The notes under the pieces: generated by a model
Database searches by the model: none
Seen by the model: only the letters and a program-made list of their open reading frames with translations
What the model was told of the DNA's origin: nothing
Position numbers and translations under genes: made by a program
NCBI RefSeq assembly: GCF_965638725.1
Contig: NC_134962.1
Location: 503,501-567,500, forward strand
Reading direction: 5' to 3'
From: Aptenodytes patagonicus
Lineage: Eukaryota; Chordata; Aves; Sphenisciformes; Spheniscidae
DNA length: 64,000 bases
In this document: piece after piece, positions 31,401-63,114 of the stretch
How positions within the stretch are numbered: position 1 is the first letter of the stretch
Layout: the number at the start of each line of letters is the position of its first letter

Positions 31401-33472
31401 GCGCACGCTCTTACTGTGGGAATGGCCAGGAACGAGGAGCAGGCTTCCCGAAACATAAAATCCCTTGTGCGGAAAACCCTCCTACCTTTTTGGGAACGGG
31501 GCTCCCTCGACGATTCAGCTCCTCATCCATCTGTCGGGCACGCTGGAAGAGGAACGGCAGTGGGATGAGCAGGGCCCTTCTCCCCGCCTGGTCATGCAGG
31601 ACCCCACGCAGCCAGCCGGCCGCTCTCTCCTTTGCCACGCTCGAGGCAGAGAGCACAAGCGTGCAGGGAAACGCCGACCCCACCCCGTCTCGGTGAGAAG
31701 CGCCGAACTGCACTAAGCAGCGACTGTGCCTGGGCTTTTCGTTGCCCTGCAGGTACCGCTCCCTCCTAACCTCACATCCCCCAGCTCTGCCTCCTGGCTG
31801 GTGCACCGATGGACAAGAGGCAGAGAACAAAGCAATTCCAACCCCTCTCCTCCTTCTCCCAGCTCTTACAAGCCATTTAAGCCTCTGGGAACAATAACAA
31901 CTTTTACCTTTGGTACTGCCTGCTCGTGGGGCAACCTGGGAACAACCTTTTTGCCGTCAGAGAACAGCAGTTTGGCCTGCAAGAAGAGAAAGAAGGGTTA
32001 CCCGATTCCGGGTCCAGAGAGGGACCTGCCAGCAACCCCCACTTTCGTGTATCTGCCCGAAAGCCCTGCAACAGCTCTGCTTTCGGAGCGCCGCCATGCA
32101 GTGCTTTTACAGACGGCGAGATGCGAAAGCACAGTCTGAGCGTGACAAAGCCTTGGCAACTGCAGCAAGACATGAAAGACAAAAATCCCGCCCTCCCCCC
32201 CCCCCACCCCACCCCCACCAGGACTCTCCGACGGGTGCCAGGGGGCCGGTCTCTGTGGAAGCTCCAGCCGCGCGACACGTGCCAACAGAGCGGCAGCGGA
32301 GAGCAGCAGTGGAAAGCAGCAGCACGAGCCGCCCGGCCCTGACTGCTCTCCTCCTCCTAGCGAGAACGAAGCAAAGCACAGCGACCGCTCAAGGGCTGCG
32401 GATGTTCCCCCCGGCTAATGGCAAAGCCATTAAGAGGGATGTGTCCTAGCCAGGCTGCTCTGCTCGGCCAGGCGCCAGGCTCTGCCGAGGAAGCGGAGCC
32501 CCTCGCTAGTGCCCACCTGCTCCAGGCAGCTCCGACACGTCTCCTGGATGAGCTGCTCCGGGTCCACCTCCTCCCCGACATTATCGCGCACGTTGATTGC
32601 TGCCTTCTGGAAAAACTGGAGAGGAGGCGGCAGGAGAGGGTTAGAGCCTGAGCAGCCAGGCAGTGTCGGGGCAGGCACGCGGGCCCAGCTCCCACGCTGC
32701 GCCCACACACCCGCGGCCACAAGAAAGGTGCGACGGCCTCACGTGGCGCCTGGAAGCGGAGCGCTCTCTACGCAGCCCGCGACGGGACAGGGCGGCGGGG
32801 CCTGTCCCTGCAGCTCTCACCTTCATGTACTTGTTGAAGACGCCCCGGATTTCCTCGTTGATGCTGGGCTGCAGGACAGCTCGCAGCAGGTCCATGGACA
32901 CGGCCGGGTCCGTGAAGCTGACGGTGGAGGAGTCAGGTGGGGGGCGCGGGACCCCCCTTGCTCCAGTCTGGTCTTAGCCCAGATCCCCCCCCCTCCGGTC
33001 TGGTGCCCAGTCCAGCCAGCCCGGTCCAGCCCCCTCCCTCTGTTCAACCTTCCCCCTCGGGTCCCTCTGGCCCGGGCTCCCCCACCGCCACCCCCTGCCC
33101 AGCCCAGCCCAGCCCCTGCCCGGCCCACTCCCCTTCCCGCCCCCGGCCCAGCTCCCCGCCGGCTCGGTCCCATCCCGCCTCCCCACCGGCCCGGTCCCTC
33201 CGGCGGAGGCCGCGGCCCGCCCGTACCTGGTGGTCATCTGGGAGCGCCGGCCGCGCCGCTGCACCTGCCGGTGCTTGATCATGATGTTCCAGGGGCTCTG
33301 CGGGACACACGCGTCAGCCGCGGCCGGCCCGCCCGGCCCCGGCCCCGGCCGCGGCCCCGGCCCCGGCCCCGGCCCCCCGCCTCACCGTGCTGACCAGCTG
33401 CTCCTCGGCGCCGCCCGGGCCCTCCTCGCCCGGCGGCCCCGGCTGCTGCTCCGCATCGCGGGCGGCGCCCAT
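28417..33472 (-). CDS. DNTTIP1: Deoxynucleotidyltransferase terminal-interacting protein 1 (TdIF1)
   Basis: Thirteen exons: 33386-33472, 33227-33297, 32821-32917, 32517-32615, 31908-31976, 31486-31542, 31176-31237, 30656-30701, 30121-30179, 29876-29936, 29402-29473, 28943-28998 and a last one from 28554 down. All borders agree in phase and follow the human protein: SPWNIMIKHRQVQRRGRRSQ, INEEIRGVFNKYM, RKGRPPG with its AT-hook-like motif, ALGMGGTRGRLYIKHPHLFK, and WMTEKMQKHMETLR. DNTTIP1 dimerises through its N-terminal domain and belongs to the mitotic histone deacetylase complex MiDAC with HDAC1/2 and MIDEAS. The end is unclear: the frame has no stop before the AATAAA. A TGA at 28417-28419 lies in another frame, just after C/G runs, so one miscounted base would explain it. 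Confidence 0.93.
28591..28745. repeat. 44-bp tandem repeat in the last DNTTIP1 intron
   Basis: Copies start at 28591, 28635, 28679 and 28723, an exact 44-base period, about 3.5 units that are nearly identical (starting GCACCCACCACGGACCCCCA). Recent expansion; likely polymorphic. Confidence 0.92.
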
Positions 33473-40341: not shown

Positions 40342-40347
40342 TTTAAA
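40342..40347 (+). promoter_or_regulatory. TTTAAA box of gene A
   Basis: TTTAAA 45 bases before the ATG at 40387. The same box at a like distance precedes four other genes of the cluster. Confidence 0.55.
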
Positions 40348-40386
40348 TTGCTGCCCGGCTCAGCCCTGGCCACTGGCTCCGGCAGC

Positions 40387-43254
40387 ATGACTGCGAGAGG
40401 CATCTTCCTGCTGGGGCTCCTCGCCCTGTGGGCAGAGCTGCAGGCAGCACCCACTGCAGGCAAGTACGGGCGCGATGGAAACACCCGGCCTCTCTAGATT
40501 TTAAGAATATTTTCCGTATTTTCATAGAATTATAGAGTCACAGAATGGTTTGGGTTGGAAGGGACCTTTAAAGTTCATCTAGTCCAACCCCCCTGCAACG
40601 AGCAGGGACATCTTCAGCTAGATCAGTGTTGATGATGATGTTCAGTGATGTGTGTTTAAATGTCTGTTTTCATCCTTGTATTTATGAAAGCTTCCTGTGA
40701 AGAGTTGTAACCCTTGTGAGGTTTAGCCCTTGCTTAAATTTTATAATCTTCGTGTTCTGCAAAACTCCTGCTGAGGACGGAGACGGCGGTGGTACCAGCA
40801 CGCAGGCGTAGGGATGCTCGCGAGGAGGTTTGTCAGTTGAACCGGCGACCAGGGCAGGGACCGGTGGAAATGTCAGCCTGGCCAGGCCCCTGGGGTGCTG
40901 CAGATGGGACCGAGACGGGCTGGACCGGACCCAGACTGGGCTGCCTGGGGGGGGGCCAGAATGGTCCCTCCCGGCTGGGCAGAGCAGCTTCCATCCACGG
41001 GGCTGGGACCCCCTGGGGCGAGTGGGGACCCCCACCCCTCACAGCCCTGCTCGGGGCATCTCTAACCAAAATAAGAACCTGCAGGTTGTTAGAGCCGAGC
41101 TCCAGCGGGCTGAGCTCTGCTGCCCACCCGCCTGTGCCTGCCTTGGACCTGAGCGCAGCACGTTCCTTGCCCGGGCTGGCAGCTGGCCCTGCGCTTTGCT
41201 TCGTGGCAGGTTCAGGGCATCTCCCCCCGCCCGTGAGCCCTCCGAAAGCACCAGCCCCGCCAGGGAGGTGCAGCTCTGGGAGAAAGGAAATTCTCAAAGA
41301 AGAATTATTTTTCCTTCTCTTTTTTTTTTTTTTTTAAATGGCCAACTTTCAAAGAAGTGAAAATTGCGTTTCTTTTGAATGATCAGTGAAGTGATTTTGA
41401 GAGCAGTGTTTGATATTTTACAGAACCCCTTCTTTCTGAATGCTCCTGCATGTGTTGCAAGCCGGGCTGTTTTATTCTAAGGCTTAAAGTCCGAGGCAGC
41501 AGCGGCTCCTGCGCAGCGGGAGCCAGGTTTGCTGTTGCTCTGTGTAACAAGACGCTGGGGCCATGGCACGCTGATAAAAATGTGTTGAAGAAACTCGAGT
41601 TTCTTTTGGTCTCGGTTTACAGCCTGGTTTTAAGCCTTACGATACAACCCGCCTTTTGCCAGCAAGCCGGCAGCGCTGGTGCCTGCATTGCTAACATGTT
41701 GGTCCCGTGCCCTGTCCCAGAGCGATGTCAAGGTGCCAGCACTGCCGGTGGGGAGCCTCGTGCCGCGCTGCTCCGCTGCTGAGCGGGATCGCTTGCTGCT
41801 GCTCAACAGGAGAGCGTGCAGCTAAATACGCTTACTGATATATTTATGCCCTGGTTAAATAGCACATGCTGCATTTGTATTTGTTTTGCTAAGAAGTTGC
41901 TAGTGCAACGTTCACCTGTCCCCTGCACCCCCCCGGGAGCACCCCAGGACACACGCACGCCGGCCCCACCACAACGCTGCCACGCGCCGGGAGGCACTGG
42001 CGTGGCCCGGAGGGCTGTGTTGCCCTGGCTGTGCAGGCAGCAGTGGGCAGGCAGAGGCCTGAAATCCCACCGGGAAACGCCGCAGGGGAGAAGGCAGCCA
42101 TGCGGCGCCATGGCAAAGCCGGCTGCTGCGAGCACGGGGAGCGTCCTGCCCTCGATGCCCCGGCTCAGCATCAAAGTGCCAAGTCTGAGACCCTGAGCCA
42201 TCAAGGGGCAGATCCCTGTGGGCTTTGCCCATCCAGGAGCCCTGTGCAGTGTCACGGGGTGCTGGCGGGTGGGAGCTGTGGGTGGAAGCCGTGGGTGGGA
42301 GCCGTGGGTGGGAGGGCAGCGCAGGGCTGGTGCCCCGGGGCTGACGCTGCTGCTTTCTGCTCCCTTCCAGGGCTCCCCGGAGCAGCCCCTGCCAGGTGGC
42401 CACAGCCAGGGCAGCCTGGAAGCACTCTGCCGGGGAAGAGCCCTTTGCCTGGGGAAGAGCCCAGCGCGGTGGGTTGCCCCTGTCCGCAGCCCGGCAGGGT
42501 TGCCCCGGAGGGGAAGTGGGAGTCGGGTGCGGAGCGGGTGGGTAAGGACCAGCGCCCGCCCGGGGCTGAGCCGGTGGCTGCTGCAACACCCGCGTCGGGG
42601 AAGAAGCCGGTGACTGGGGGGGAGCCTGCAGTGGGGAACAAGCCCACGCTGGCTGGGAAGCCAGACACTGGGAAGAAACCCAGTTCAGGGAAAAAGCCAG
42701 GGTGTTGGGGGAAGACTGAGACTAGGGAAAAGCCAGAGGTCACAGTGAAGCCAGAAACCGGGGTGAAGCCGGAGACTGGAGGGAAGCCAGACAGTGGGGG
42801 GAAGCCGGAGGCTGCGGGGAAGCCGGAGACTGGAGGGAAGCCGGAGGTTGGGGGGAAGCCGGAGGCTGGGGAGAAACCTGTGCTGGGGGAGAAGCCGGAG
42901 ACCGGGGGGAAGCCAGAGAGTGAGGGGAAGCCTGAGGCGGGAGAGAAGCCTGAGTCTGACCAGGGTGACAGTGGGGAGGATGATGACAGTGATGATGACG
43001 ATGATGATGATGACGACGATGACGACGACGACGACGATGATGATGATGATAAAAATGAGTATGGCGATGACGACGGTGATTACGATGACGACTACGACGA
43101 TGATGACGACGATGATGATGACGACTACGACGACGACTACGACGATGATGACGACGACGACGACGACGATGACGGAGATGATGGTGGTGATGATGATGAT
43201 GATGACGACAGTGATGATGGTGGTGGTGGTGGTGACGGCGATGAAGCTTGGTGA
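40387..43254 (+). CDS. Gene A: secreted Lys-Pro-repeat, poly-aspartate protein (unrecognised)
   Basis: Exon 1 (40387-40459) encodes a signal peptide (MTARGIFLLGLLALWAE, cleavage likely near QAAPTA). Its donor is CAG then gcaagt, a strong GC-type site. Exon 2 (42371-43254) joins in frame and ends at TGA; total 318 residues. Residues 25-100 are Pro/Gly/Ala-rich with one CPC. Residues about 100-220 hold some twenty Lys-Pro dipeptides, becoming regular hexapeptides such as GGKPEA, AGKPET, GEKPES. Residues about 220-318 are almost pure Asp with a few Tyr, Gly and Ser. The signal exon / large repeat exon plan and the locus recall trappins and semenogelins, whose hexapeptide repeats are transglutaminase substrates. 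The acid tail would bind calcium strongly. Function is unknown; an eggshell or other mineral-matrix role is only a guess. AATAAA follows at 43409. Confidence 0.75.
40460..42370 (+). other. Intron of gene A
   Basis: A GC-AG intron of 1.9 kb. It contains a CR1 LINE tail near its start and a T-run at about 41320-41336. No further exon was recognised in it. Confidence 0.6.
40523..40640 (-). mobile_element. CR1 LINE, truncated 3' end
   Basis: The strings atagaattatagagtcacag, ggtttgggttggaagggacc and ttcatctagtccaacccccc are the reverse complement of the well-known 3' end of avian CR1 elements. The element lies on the minus strand and is 5' truncated to about 120 bases, with its ATTCTATG-type tail at the low-coordinate end. 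It is the only CR1 copy I find in the window. Confidence 0.9.
42968..43251 (+). repeat. GAT/GAC codon repeat
   Basis: About 280 bases of mixed GAT and GAC triplets encoding the Asp tail of gene A. The synonymous mixture, rather than one pure triplet, suggests that aspartate itself is being kept. On the minus strand it creates false Val/Ile-rich and His-rich frames. Confidence 0.9.
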
Positions 43255-43408
43255 CCAATGCTGCAGGGTGTGCGAGGAGCGTGTGGGGCAATGAGAGCCC
43301 GTGGTGGGTTGGCACAGGGGCGGCCACCCCTGGCTTCCTCCTCTGCCTCCCTCTGCCAGGGCTGGTCCCAGGCACCAATGGCATTTTGGGCAGGACCTAC
43401 TCTTTCCT

Positions 43409-43414
43409 AATAAA
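43409..43414 (+). terminator. Gene A poly(A) signal
   Basis: AATAAA 155 bases after the stop codon of the Asp-rich gene. From here to 44.37 kb I see no gene. Confidence 0.75.
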
Positions 43415-44368
43415 CCCCACATTGGGCCACCGGCTTGGTGTGACAAGCTGTCCCTGGACAGTGCCTGGCACGGCCAGGCCATCGTGGCTGCCCCAGCCCT
43501 GCCCCGGGCACAGGGAGCTCCTGCGCTCGCTCCTGCCCGGCATGGGCTCGGCGGGGCTCTTTGCACGGTGATGTGAGTCTGTCCCCCGTGGAAGAGCCAC
43601 AGGGATGGTCCCAACCGGGCGCCCGCCCAGGACCAGCAGAGTATCTCTGGGCCAGGAGAAACCTCCCTGTGGGGTCTGTCCCCCCCAGCTCCCTGGGGCT
43701 CCCTGGGGCGAGCTGCTCTGTGGCCAAGGCCCCCCGGCATCCTCCAAAAGCAGCCGCCATGGCAGGGCTTGGTCAGGAGCCACGCGAGCATGGACACCCA
43801 CAGGTCCCAGATCTGGTGGTTTTGCACAGGCGGTGTGCCGGGGTGCTGGGAGCCTCGCCTGTGCCCGCCGTGCTGCGTCGTGCCGTGCTGGCAGTGGGGT
43901 CAGGAGCTGGGGGACCGCTGCCTGTGCAGGATGTGAGGGGCACTGCCAACTGACCCCCGAGGGCTCAGGGCAGCCCCGACACACTCCTGCTGCGGAGCTG
44001 CACTAAGGTGAGGTTGGGGCCGGCTGTGCTGCCGTGGCCCTGGGGCAAGCCTGGGTCCTCTGTGGGGGCATGATGGAGTCCCGCCAGGCACCTGCTCCCA
44101 GGAGGGTCTCTGGGAATAAGAACGAGCCTGGTCCCGGCAGGGATGGATGGACCTGTGGAGTTTGGGCAGGACTTGTGTGCAGGTCCCCGGGGACATGCCA
44201 GCTGCAGTGGCACAGCCCCTGCCCGGGACCCCATCCCTCCTGCAGGAGCCGAAGGTCCCACGGAGGCTGGCGGGGGATCACCAGGAGACTGACACAGCAG
44301 AAGCCAGCCAGTGTTCATTGCAGACTGGGTTTACTGGGGGGTGGGAGGGCACGGAGACCCCCCCGTGC

Positions 44369-44908
44369 TCAGCATGGAGCTGAGCGCGAGGGGGTGGAGG
44401 TGGGATCGGGGGGACGGGTGCTTATCCAGCAGTTGATGGATCCCTCCATGGCCAGCTGTCCAGCTGTCTGGTACGGGGTGGCTGCACACTCTGGGTCCTT
44501 GGTCTGGGTCCAGGTGGGGGCTAGGTGAATCCTGGGGAGAAACGGGAGTGTCCATGTCCCAAGCCCTTGCTTTGGAGCACGCCAGGGCGTAGCCGTTGGC
44601 CCCACAGCAGGGCCCTGGGGCAAGGGCTCCCAAGACCCCGTGCACCCCTCCCAGGGGAGCTGTCGGGGGGTTTGCTGGTCACTTCTGCAGTGTGCGAGGA
44701 TGTGTGGGGAGATGGCACTGCTGTGCGGGACGCTGCACCCTGGCCATGGCTGTGCTCATCCCTGTGCATGCGGCTGTGCACCCTTGCGCAGCACCATCCC
44801 GCCAGCTCCCCACACCCGCCCTGCACCTACCCCACGCTCACCTGCGGACACCAGCCGGGCGCAGAGGCAGCAGAGCCCCAGGAGCAGGAGCAGCGACAGC
44901 AGCCGCAT
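44369..44908 (-). CDS. Gene B: small secreted peptide of the WFDC cluster (unrecognised)
   Basis: Exon 1 (44842-44908) encodes a strong signal peptide, MRLLSLLLLLGLCCLCARL, with a consensus donor in phase 1 like the signal exons of WAP genes. Exon 2 is less sure. The most protein-like choice is 44369-44520 (72 residues in total), mature part with three Cys: TKDPECAATPYQTAG, MEGSINCWISTRPPD and a terminal PC. Other acceptors also keep frame, one at 44614 giving 116 residues ending at 44331. None shows a WAP or Kunitz pattern. A TTTAAA box lies 55 bases upstream of the ATG. I do not recognise the family. Confidence 0.45.
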
Positions 44909-44957
44909 GGCGCGGGGCGGGCAGCGTGGGGGCTGCCTGTCCGGGCACAGGCAGGGG

Positions 44958-44963
44958 TTTAAA
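44958..44963 (-). promoter_or_regulatory. TTTAAA box of gene B
   Basis: TTTAAA within GGGTTTAAATCC, 55 bases before the gene B start; similar in sequence and spacing to those of genes A, D and E. Confidence 0.55.
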
Positions 44964-47900
44964 TCCTCCCGGGGCTGGAGGTTGGTCCCAGTGACCCGGT
45001 CCATGCCCCAGCACCTGGCACGCTCCGTCCGAGCGTGACCCCCCCCCGTCCCCTCCCTCCCATGGCCTGCTGCTGCTGGATGAGCCGTGCAGAGAGGCAT
45101 GAAGGTGCTGCTGCTCGGTGCTGGGCTCTGTGCAGCCCTGAGAGAGCCGTGCTGTGCTGTGCCATGCCGTGCTGTGCCACAAGATAAGAGCAGCTGGTGC
45201 AGCTTCCCACTGCGGGTGACAGGTACAGGCCAGGTGGCAGCAAGGGGCTGGGGGACCCCGGCATGGGGCTGGCTCTGCCGAGGCAGTGGAGGTGGCTCCC
45301 CAGCTGGGTGCTGTGGAGCGGCCCATGGTGCCCTGGCAGCTCTCCGGGCATTGTTCTGCCTTGGGGAACAATCGCTGGCTCCTGAGGGACGTCCTGTGAC
45401 TGGACACGGTCCACAGTCCTGCACTGCCACAGGCCCCTCAGCCCCGCACCTCCTGGCTAGCCGGTGCCCAGACGGCCCCACACCTTGGGGTGGCAGCCAG
45501 GGACCAGGACTGGCCGGGGGGATGCGGGGCCCCGGTGCTGAGGGCAGGGAGCCAGAGGCTGCGTGGGGGCTCTGCCCGGGTGCCGGGACTGCGGGGCCAT
45601 AGCACTGGGTCCCATGTCCTTGCTGGAACTGCGGCGGGTGCCCGTGCCCCTATCACGTGGTGCTGGAGCTGCCTCTCACCTCCTGCACCCTTCCAGGGGG
45701 CTGGCGGGACCGGCCACCCCAGCCCCTGTGGCCACCCGCTGCCGGGGCTCCGGGCATGGGCATGGATCTGCACCAGCACCATCGCTCCGAGGGACACAGC
45801 CCTTCCCAGGGTCTGGCTGCGCTTCCCACCCACGGCTCTGTGCGTGCCTGGAGCCCCACAGCAATCGCTTGGGCACTGGCTCTCCCGGGGGGGCCCCGAA
45901 GCCACCCCCAGCACCATGCTGAGTGGGGGTATCTGCAAGCGTGCCACAGGCTGCACCAGCAGCAGGGGCTGTCCCGGGAGCTGCTGCCTGTCCCTGGGGC
46001 TGCACCGTGCCAGCGCTGCGTGGGGCTGCAGATGGGTCTGCTGGTGCGGTGTGTCGCAAGGATGGAGGCACCGGAGCGGCTGGGGCTTTCCCTGCCGGCT
46101 CCCTTCCGGGACCGCCTGTCCCTGGGAGAGGCAGGAGGGCTCTGGCGTGCTCGGCCGGGCAGGCTGCCTGCACACACGTGTGGATGTGCATGTGCACGTG
46201 CATGTGAAATGCAAGCCGGCCAGGTGTGGACACGTGTGCGTGCATGTGCATGCGTGTGCAGTTCACGCTCCATGTGCATGTGCCATCTAAACCGTGTGTG
46301 CCCGTGTGTGCCCATCGACAGTCCAGGCTGGCTGGGTGGCACCACGCGCTTGCCAGCAGCCAGCTACGGGGGGGACCCTCTCCTGTTGGTGTGTCCCTGT
46401 GTGCGGGATGGAGGTGACCTGCAGGTGGGATGACCTGTCCCGGGAACACATGGAGTTGTGAGAAGAGGAGCAGTGGGGAGCGCTGGCTCCACTGTGCCAC
46501 GGTGTCCCCGCTCCCTGCAGGGTCTGTCCCTGTCCCTGTCCTTGTCCCTGTGTGGGCTTGTGTCAGCCCTGGGGAACGTCGGTCCCGACAGGCCAGCGGG
46601 CTCCGCGCGGGGCCAGCCAGGACGTGCCACAGCCAGTGGGACCCGCTCTGCCCCTTGGCTCCCCCAGCCCCTCTCCTGCTGCATACCCGGGCTAGGCAGG
46701 AGCATCATCCTGGTGGCACAGCCCCATCCCTGTCCCCGCTTGGTGCCCGCCCTGGGAGGTGCCACATTCCTGGGTGCTCCCTGGGCCAGGCTGCCCTGGT
46801 CGCTATTTCCGCCACGGTGGAGGTCTGGCTGGCAGCTCTGCCCTGCACGGCTGCGCCCATTACCCATGCTGCATGTCCCCTGCCGCATGAGCTGGATACG
46901 GTGGCAAGGCAGGCCAGGGGTCACCGACATGGGTCCCCCGTGGGGCATGGTTTTCTGTTGCGTGCAACCCCAACGTCTGCCTGGAAGCAGCCCCCCCCCC
47001 CCCGAACCCCAGCACCCGCGGGACCAGCTCCTGCGTCCACCGTGGCATCCCCCTGGCTTGGCCACGGCATTACCGCTGGTGCAGGGACAGCAGGGGCTGC
47101 TCTGGAAGACGATGTCAGTCGTTACAGTGATCACCTGGGTGGCTGAGATACCGTGGAGAGATAGTGGGGAAAAATGTAGCCCCAGTGGATTTTGGTGTCA
47201 TGGCCCTGCCCCCCTGCGGGGTGTGGGGTTGGGAGTTTCGGTGCCACCAGGAATGTCCTGAACAGCTCAAGGTTGTGGGAGACATGCCAAGGGCGGCTGC
47301 CAAGCTGTGGGTCTGGGACCACTGCAGTCCCGTGCAGGGATCTCCTTCCCACCGCCCGCCCTGACCCTGCCCCCCCCGACTGCCACCGGCATGGCCCTCC
47401 GGCTTTGCTCCCGCCCCGCTCGGGCTTTGCCACGTTGCCATGTCCCACACCAGGGACACTGCCGGGGTCTCCGTCCTGGGGCTTCAGAAGAGAGGCAGGG
47501 AAAAGCTGCAGTGGGGTGCGGGCAGGTTGCGGTGCCACCCTCCAAACCCCACCCTGCTCCGACTTTCCTGGCCTCTCCCCACAGAGCTCTCCTCGCCCTC
47601 CGCTTCCCGTTGGGACAGTAATTACAGCAGTAATTAGGAAGACAATTATTCCTGCTGAATGAGAACAGCTTAATCTGTTTCTCCCTCCTTTTGGCAGGTT
47701 TCACCCCACGCCCGCCCACGGGTGCCGGCGGGATGCCGGGGACCCACCTGCTGCCCGGCCCAGCGCCAGGAGCCCTGTGCTGCCGTGGGTCCGACCACCG
47801 GCCAGGACCGGGGCAGGCTGCGAGCCGAGGTGGTACCCACGGGCTCAGCCCTGTGTGTGTGACTGTCCTGCCCGGGATGTCCTCTGTCAAACTGGGGATG

Positions 47901-48435: not shown

Positions 48436-49446
48436 ATGGAGCTGCCGCCCAGCTGCCTCCTCCTCCTCCTTGCAGTCCTGCTCCCCCTCGCCGCACTGTC
48501 TGGCCCGGCCCTGCACACAGCTGGAAGAGAGGAGCCAGGGACGGGTGAGTGTGCCTGGGGCACGTCCCGAGGACAGGGATGCTTTGGGTGCCGCTGCTGC
48601 CTGGTGCTCCCCACTGCTCTGCGTGATGCTGGGTGTCTGCGGGGGCACAGGGCTGTGGGCGATCGGGGTCTGGCCCTGGGGCACTGGGGGGCTGCTCAGC
48701 CCCCAGCTCTGCGGCTCTCCCCAGCGTCCCAGCCGCTGTGTCCCACAGCAAAGGCTGGGTACTGCTACCACATCCCAGAGGTGGAGGACCTGCTGGACGA
48801 GGACTGCGGCACCTGCCGCAGGGACGTCTCATGCTCCCGCTGCACCAGCGATGCCAGCTGTCCCGGTGCCACCAAGTGCTGCCCCAGCAAGTGTGGCTAC
48901 ACGTGCCAGGAGCCGGTGCTGGGTGAGGGCTCGGTGCTGTGGCGGTGGGGCTCTGGAACGGCAGTGTGGTGAGCGCAGGGGAGGGCAACAGGAGGGGTGA
49001 GCCAAGGCAACCGGGAAGGGGGTTCTCTGGGGTGACCCTGAGCTCTTGCCGCATCCTGCAGACCCGGGGGGGCACCACGCTGTGCAGTGGGGGAGCACCT
49101 GGGCTGCTGGCGCGTGGGGCAAGCGGGCGCAGAGCTGGCTGCCAGCGGGAAGGGTTCGGCAGCGAGAGGGGACCAGAGCTGTGCAGACTTCTCTGAGGGC
49201 CCCGGGAGCACCAAGCCCCACGGTGTCCCCATCCCATTGCCGGCTCAGCCCATTCCCCTTGGACTGCCAGATTTCTGCTACCTGCCCTCCGTCTGCGGGA
49301 GCTGCAAGGCACTCTTCCGCCGCTTCTTCTTCAACGCCTCCAGCCAGCAGTGTGAGGAGTTCATCTACGGCGGCTGCGGTGGCAACAGGAACAACTTCGA
49401 GACGGAGGGCGAGTGCTTCCAGGCCTGCTCCCATATCGGTAACTAG
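48436..49446 (+). CDS. Gene C: WAP + Kunitz inhibitor, EPPIN / ovocalyxin-25-like
   Basis: Three exons, 48436-48544, 48749-48922 and 49271-49446, all phase 1, give 152 residues. Exon 1 is a signal peptide. Exon 2 is a WAP domain ([13 protein letters not shown], then [17 protein letters not shown]) with ten Cys instead of eight. Exon 3 is a Kunitz domain: [34 protein letters not shown], with seven Cys, the extra one just before the inhibitory loop (SVCGSCKA). Lys in the P1 position predicts trypsin-like targets. WAP followed by Kunitz is the plan of mammalian EPPIN and WFDC6 at this locus and, from memory, of the chicken eggshell protein ovocalyxin-25. Orthology to one or the other is not settled here. 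A weak AATACA lies near 49846. Confidence 0.85.
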
Positions 49447-62962: not shown

Positions 62963-63114
62963 TCAGTGGAGGGGTGTCACACAGGAGACCTTGCCACAGC
63001 CGTTCCTGCAGCACTTCTGGCTCCCAGAGCAGTTGGAGTCCGTCTTGCACTGGTTCATGCAGACGCCTAGCATGGGGATCCCCGGACTGACGGGTGGGCA
63101 GGTTCCGGGCTTCT
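62963..63114 (-). CDS. WFDC2: Gene F: WFDC2 (HE4)-like, last coding exon; gene continues past the right edge
   Basis: One phase 1 WAP exon with all eight Cys ends in a stop after SCVTPLH. The block [15 protein letters not shown] is, as I recall, the same as the end of human WFDC2 (HE4), and [16 protein letters not shown] follows human PQLGLCRDQCQVDSQC. WFDC2 is a secreted two-WAP protein of epithelia and the male tract. The signal exon and a good N-terminal WAP were not found in the window and should lie to the right. A damaged WAP-like stretch at about 63.38-63.55 kb is noted separately. Human WFDC2 also borders the WFDC cluster, which supports the call. Confidence 0.75.

Follow-up and report, generated by a model that had tools for sequence, protein, structure and literature searches.

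A candidate WFDC-derived gene for a secreted Lys-Pro-repeat and poly-aspartate protein in Aptenodytes patagonicus

Organization of the locus

The DNA analyzed in this study (the window) is a stretch of 64,000 nucleotides from Aptenodytes patagonicus, corresponding to positions 503501-567500 of one contig (C14:503501-567500) in a genome assembly of 1.35 Gb in 618 contigs. A candidate gene sits within it between DNTTIP1 and the WFDC cluster, in keeping with an earlier note on this DNA, which had placed a probable secreted-protein gene at the head of that cluster. On one side, a match to DNTTIP1_dimer (PF18192) is found on the minus strand at C14:536017-536398 (window 32517-32898); on the other, the first WAP match past the candidate begins at window position 48754. 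The genome contains at least 39 WAP (PF00095) matches, and the cluster spans C14:552254 to 589490.

The coding sequence of the candidate lies on the plus strand and is divided between two exons. The coding part of exon 1 (40387-40459) specifies a predicted signal peptide, MTARGIFLLGLLALWAELQAAPTA, with a phase-1 end at 40459, whereas that of exon 2 (42371-43254) encodes a neutral spacer, the Lys-Pro hexapeptides, and an Asp tail, followed by a TGA stop codon at 43252-43254. The 40459/42371 join and the outer coordinates had been proposed before and are exact: the two exons are spliced in frame to give a coding sequence of 957 nt (318 residues), with the junction CAG/GCAAGT ... CCCTTCCAG/GG. 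The predicted GC-AG intron (40460-42370) is 1,911 bases long and carries, at about 40528-40590, a stretch that we take to be CR1-like. A TATA-like box at 40342-40349 (+), approximately 45 bases before the ATG, aligned with the TATA-like boxes of three WFDC signal exons.

Both splice sites of this intron are strong. Donors were scored with a donor matrix, the GT/GC pair itself being excluded from the score; the GC donor of the candidate scored 8.66, compared to 2.60 for the best of the 102 GT sites that exon 1 and the intron contain, and four donors of the WFDC cluster fell below it, at 2.99 to 6.22. Only two acceptors on the plus strand from 40460 to 45690, those at 42370 and 43359, passed a filter of 83% pyrimidine. 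An AATAAA poly(A) signal is located at 43409-43414 (+), 155 bases past the stop codon. In the region from 43331 to 43420 (+), the strong acceptor located past the stop codon and before this signal would allow a noncoding third exon (43360-43430; end approximate), as in the REST genes discussed below; the donors that precede acceptor 43359 are weak (best score, 2.93), and the alternative is a plain 3' untranslated region. When the 3' end was compared with 45 other poly(A)-signal segments, no homology to WFDC genes was detected (best score of 23, with shuffles reaching 22).

Downstream on the same strand, at 48436-49428 (+), the next WFDC gene has its own TATA-like box and a signal exon at 48436, and encodes a WAP domain (48754-48915) and a Kunitz domain (49273-49428); it is possibly ovocalyxin-25-like. 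Two further features of the neighborhood were observed. One is an orphan exon of signal-like sequence, MRLLSLLLLLGLCCLCARLVSA, on the minus strand at 44842-44908, whose donor is good; an antisense gene using it was considered and rejected, since it had no homology to exon 1 of the candidate (score of 23, which is background) and no partner exon was seen by eye. In addition, a near-identical tandem duplication extends over C14:566500-592000 (from window position 63000, approximately); the copies are offset by 13,481 bases and were 95 to 100% identical in 24 comparison steps, each of 500 bases. The duplicated block carries WFDC genes, one of which has three WAP domains and one Kunitz domain, and the duplication is either recent or an artefact of assembly.

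Relationship of exon 1 to WFDC signal exons

A filter for hydrophobic signal exons ending in phase 1 was applied to 104 kb and returned 20 rows, six of which were aligned to the candidate; the rows left unaligned were copies lying in the duplicated block, second donors for an exon already listed, and stretches that on visual inspection were not taken for signal exons. The aligned query consisted of 300 bases of upstream sequence, exon 1, and 60 bases of downstream sequence, and each comparison was accompanied by 200 shuffles. Three signal exons from the WFDC cluster, at C14:568194, 572008, and 561001 (minus strand), had scores of 57, 43, and 40, respectively, against shuffle maxima of 33, 35, and 29, so that none of the 200 shuffles reached the observed value in any of the three comparisons. 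The scores of the other three signal-type exons (23, 27, and 26) were at the level of background, being reached by 114, 36, and 59 of the 200 shuffles; because two of these three exons belong to genes of the WFDC cluster, it follows that the first exons of WFDC genes are not all alike.

The match to the best partner covers the TATA-like box, the short 5' leader, and the signal peptide to its end, and GLLALWAEL is read in both exons. A multiple alignment of the four sequences stacks TTTAAA, TTAAA, TATAAA, and TTTAAA upstream of exon 1. The phase-1 end was set by the filter itself; therefore, the phase shared by these signal exons does not constitute independent support.

As a target-free check, 3.7 kb around the candidate was compared by blastn with the other 100 kb, which gave 20 rows at an E value of 1 or less. 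The first four rows were two of the aligned WFDC signal exons and their duplicate copies (E values of 4e-6 and 6e-4), the fifth was a stretch of the intron (E value of 0.008), and the third WFDC signal exon appeared at an E value of 0.027. The start of exon 2 matched C14:510333 at a similar E value (about 0.027), which was taken as chance. A search of the genome with exon 1 DNA matched only exon 1 itself; the first pass of this search was coarse and also missed the paralogous exons found by blastn. Judged by the alignments and by blastn, exon 1 and its upstream TATA-like box are homologous to the signal exons of three WFDC genes in the same cluster, and the WFDC ancestry suggested in the earlier note is upheld for this exon.

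Predicted protein and evidence for coding

In the predicted protein, the signal peptide is followed by the spacer (77 residues; net charge of 0), the Lys-Pro hexapeptides, and the Asp tail. The hexapeptides had been estimated at about twenty; there are indeed 20 slots (42604-42963), but Lys-Pro occupies only 18 of them, with one EP and one KT. The region of 119 residues to which they belong had been described as a Lys-rich half; it is hardly cationic, having 23 K/R versus 20 D/E (net charge of +3), and it contains no Gln. Similarly, the tail had been described as nearly 100 residues of almost pure Asp. It is an Asp-dominated tail of 98 residues with a net charge of -71, but it is not pure: 69 residues are Asp, the longest unbroken run is 20, and Gly, Tyr, Ser, Lys, Asn, and Glu interrupt it. 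Three S-x-E/D motifs are present in the predicted protein, and a search of it for an N-glycosylation motif found none. This charge layout, like the anatomy of the gene and the homology of exon 1, is a property of the sequence itself, and the composition suggests a disordered secreted chain, one half of which is near neutral and the other a polyanion.

A Pfam search with the predicted protein returned nothing up to an E value of 10. No second copy was found in the genome: a protein search with the chain minus the Asp run recovered its own two exons and then four weak matches (E values of 0.008 to 0.70), three of which contain stop codons. Matches in the PDB to 5vj4_A (E value of 8.8e-6) and 8vzn_A (E value of 0.35) were confined to the Lys-Pro region and were discounted as low complexity. 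The expected tryptic peptides of the protein include WPQPGQPGSTLPGK, SPLPGEEPSAVGCPCPQPGR, and DQRPPGAEPVAAATPASGK. Lys-Pro bonds are not generally cut by trypsin. Most of the Lys-Pro half would remain joined to the first part of the tail in one peptide of about 109 residues, and the remainder of the tail counts about 66 residues; because trypsin would leave peptides of these sizes, standard proteomics could miss the protein. No description of the gene was found in the openly available texts that were searched. Word searches in eggshell and oviduct texts revealed no Lys-Pro/poly-Asp protein of this kind, and a word search of PMC3999959 gave no occurrence.

Open reading frames alone prove nothing at this locus, because long antisense frames, too, stay open across the repeats, and the length of the open frame was for that reason rejected as evidence for a gene. 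Among the 20 Lys-Pro units, pN/pS in the coding frame was 0.58 (0.47 to 0.75 in a bootstrap over units, with 0 of 500 replicates at 1 or above). The two remaining forward frames gave 1.11 and 0.99, and the reverse frames gave 1.22, 1.05, and 0.62; we think that the reverse frame at 0.62 has its wobble column in common with the coding frame. In an 18-column permutation null, 20 of 500 permutations were as low as the observed value. The mean entropy of the units at codon positions 1, 2, and 3 was 0.74, 0.85, and 1.18, respectively, and all four Pro codons occur. These values point to units that favor silent change, with a modest contrast in pN/pS.

In the Asp-rich tract (42976-43245; 90 codons examined), 35 codons are GAT and 32 are GAC, a mixture that had been put forward as an argument that Asp is selected. 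Departures by transition numbered 4, 11, and 32 at codon positions 1, 2, and 3, respectively (chi-square P value of 1.3e-6), although this statistic, like those of the repeats, is limited by the nonindependence of tandem copies and by an ancestral codon that is not established. The third-position excess agrees with the argument, but maintenance of Asp by selection is suggestive only. Read in reverse as poly-Ser, the tract contains stop codons.

The repeats also underlie the alternative that the locus makes no functional protein and consists of a duplicated WFDC promoter and signal exon beside simple-sequence expansions that are open by luck, with little or no transcription. Several frames are held open by the repeats, antisense frames included; TRF detects 18-base arrays and 3- to 12-base arrays; and the permutation support for coding is limited to the figure given above. 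Nevertheless, the donor and acceptor are strong and in the right phase, the third positions are the most variable in both the Lys-Pro units and the Asp tract, and every Pro codon is used, and we regard a locus without a functional product as unlikely. The features that exceed chance are the WFDC homology of both exon 1 and the sequence upstream of it, the splice sites, and, more weakly, the codon pattern. The feature is real and likely to be a gene with a clear origin for exon 1; we think it probable that this gene is also expressed. It may already have an automatic annotation in bird gene databases.

Possible function and comparison with known systems

The best explanation of these data, which as a whole we favor tentatively and with slightly less than even confidence, is that the candidate is a functional gene for a secreted protein with a mineral-binding poly-Asp tail and that its likeliest site of action is the oviduct or eggshell. 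It can be envisioned that a duplicated WFDC promoter and signal exon became joined through the GC-AG intron to a repeat-expanded exon, which would have produced a protein without a WAP domain. Cleavage of the signal peptide would then yield a disordered product in which a Lys-Pro polyampholyte stands between a neutral spacer and the highly negative tail (-71). The poly-Asp tail would bind Ca2+ or carbonate mineral and steer its precipitation, the Lys-Pro half might tether the protein to the matrix or to other acidic proteins, and the most likely setting would be the oviduct or eggshell. We infer transcription, secretion, disorder, calcium binding, and tissue. If the gene is real and expressed, then a calcium- or mineral-binding role is more likely than not; an eggshell role in particular, taken overall, is conceivable but doubtful. 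The argument from the neighborhood for a role in the egg is weak: a WFDC product, whey acidic protein 3, was detected in chicken egg white (PMC4904793), and the WAP and Kunitz domains of the downstream WFDC gene are those described for ovocalyxin-25 (PMC4550075).

The same polyanion could instead be secreted in the gut, airway, skin, or male tract and bind metals there in host defense or buffering rather than in mineral formation. Such a role would fit the antiprotease and antimicrobial roles of the neighboring WFDC genes, and poly-Asp could perhaps chelate Ca, Zn, or Mn; however, the candidate has neither a WAP domain nor any other defense domain, and we do not expect this reading to be correct. 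Less probable still is a structural or coagulum protein that is cross-linked by transglutaminase in the manner of semenogelins or trappins. The repeats, the two-exon plan, the WFDC ancestry of exon 1, and the presence of Lys are consistent with such a protein, but the claim that the hexapeptides are transglutaminase substrates does not survive the lack of Gln throughout the 119 residues, since the Lys-Pro region could offer lysine only and the acyl side would not be self-supplied. Finally, that exon 1 is an alternative first exon of the downstream WAP and Kunitz gene and exon 2 an intronic repeat is highly improbable, for although the strand is the same and the phase is compatible, the downstream gene begins with a TATA-like box and a signal exon (48436) of its own and the strong acceptor at 42370 lies in between.

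Among known systems, the closest by origin are genes related to the WFDC family. The candidate shares with trappin-2/elafin (PI3) a WFDC-type signal exon and hexapeptide repeats, and a promoter and signal exon homologous to those of WFDC genes were found; unlike trappin-2/elafin, it has no WAP domain and no Gln in its repeats. No WAP core motif was present in 40387-43254, and no PF00095 match fell at C14:543887-546754 among the 39 matches listed. Membership of the trappins is ruled out by the lack of a WAP domain and of Gln in the repeats, and of the likeness to trappin- and semenogelin-type genes that the earlier note had drawn, only the semenogelin-type plan is retained. One report states that typical trappins were not found in chicken or zebra finch (PMC2831891).

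The REST genes (semenogelins, rodent Svs, guinea-pig Svp, and rabbit SVP200) resemble the candidate in having a WFDC-related signal exon and one large repetitive coding exon. According to PMC7556508, REST genes combine a signal exon akin to that of WFDC genes with one major coding exon, adjoin WFDC genes, and have in most cases lost the WAP domain, their locus in rodents and lagomorphs lying between Matn4 and Kcns1. In the candidate, homology to WFDC/PI3-type signal exons was found against WFDC genes of the same genome, and a single major coding exon is predicted from the sequence. It differs from the REST genes in repeats that lack Gln, in its Asp tail, in a third exon that is unproven, and, to the extent examined, in its locus, where the neighbor is DNTTIP1. 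The candidate is probably a REST-like gene of separate origin; if it is expressed, a WFDC gene would once more have given rise to a repetitive structural protein, as is known for the semen genes of mammals, but with a very different product.

Likenesses of another kind are found among proteins of mineralized structures, and the binding of calcium carbonate by poly-Asp segments speaks for the mineral-binding reading. Struthiocalcin-1 from ostrich eggshell, presumably with a C-type-lectin-like fold, has a run of Asp for which simulation shows calcite binding; in contrast to the candidate, the run consists of only four Asp residues. Its DDDD peptide showed the strongest computed calcite binding among the peptides compared, and the DDDD region survives longest in ostrich eggshell (PMC5039028). 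Ovocalyxin-25, which is described in PMC4550075 as being made up of WAP and Kunitz domains, fits the genes of the cluster, whereas the candidate has no inhibitor domains.

A likeness of layout is seen with aspein from pearl oysters, which, according to PMC9496343, has a signal sequence, an uncharged N-terminal part, and a poly-D domain and promotes calcite. Like aspein, the candidate has a signal sequence, an uncharged N-terminal part, and a poly-Asp domain, and its sequence predicts a chain with a long Asp domain that would be secreted and disordered. The resemblance is one of layout; homology to a mollusc protein is not expected, and aspein has a DA domain where the candidate has Lys-Pro repeats; that the candidate is a vertebrate counterpart of aspein is possible but somewhat unlikely. 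With its long poly-Asp tail, the predicted secreted protein would be a direct candidate for the control of calcium carbonate in the eggshell.
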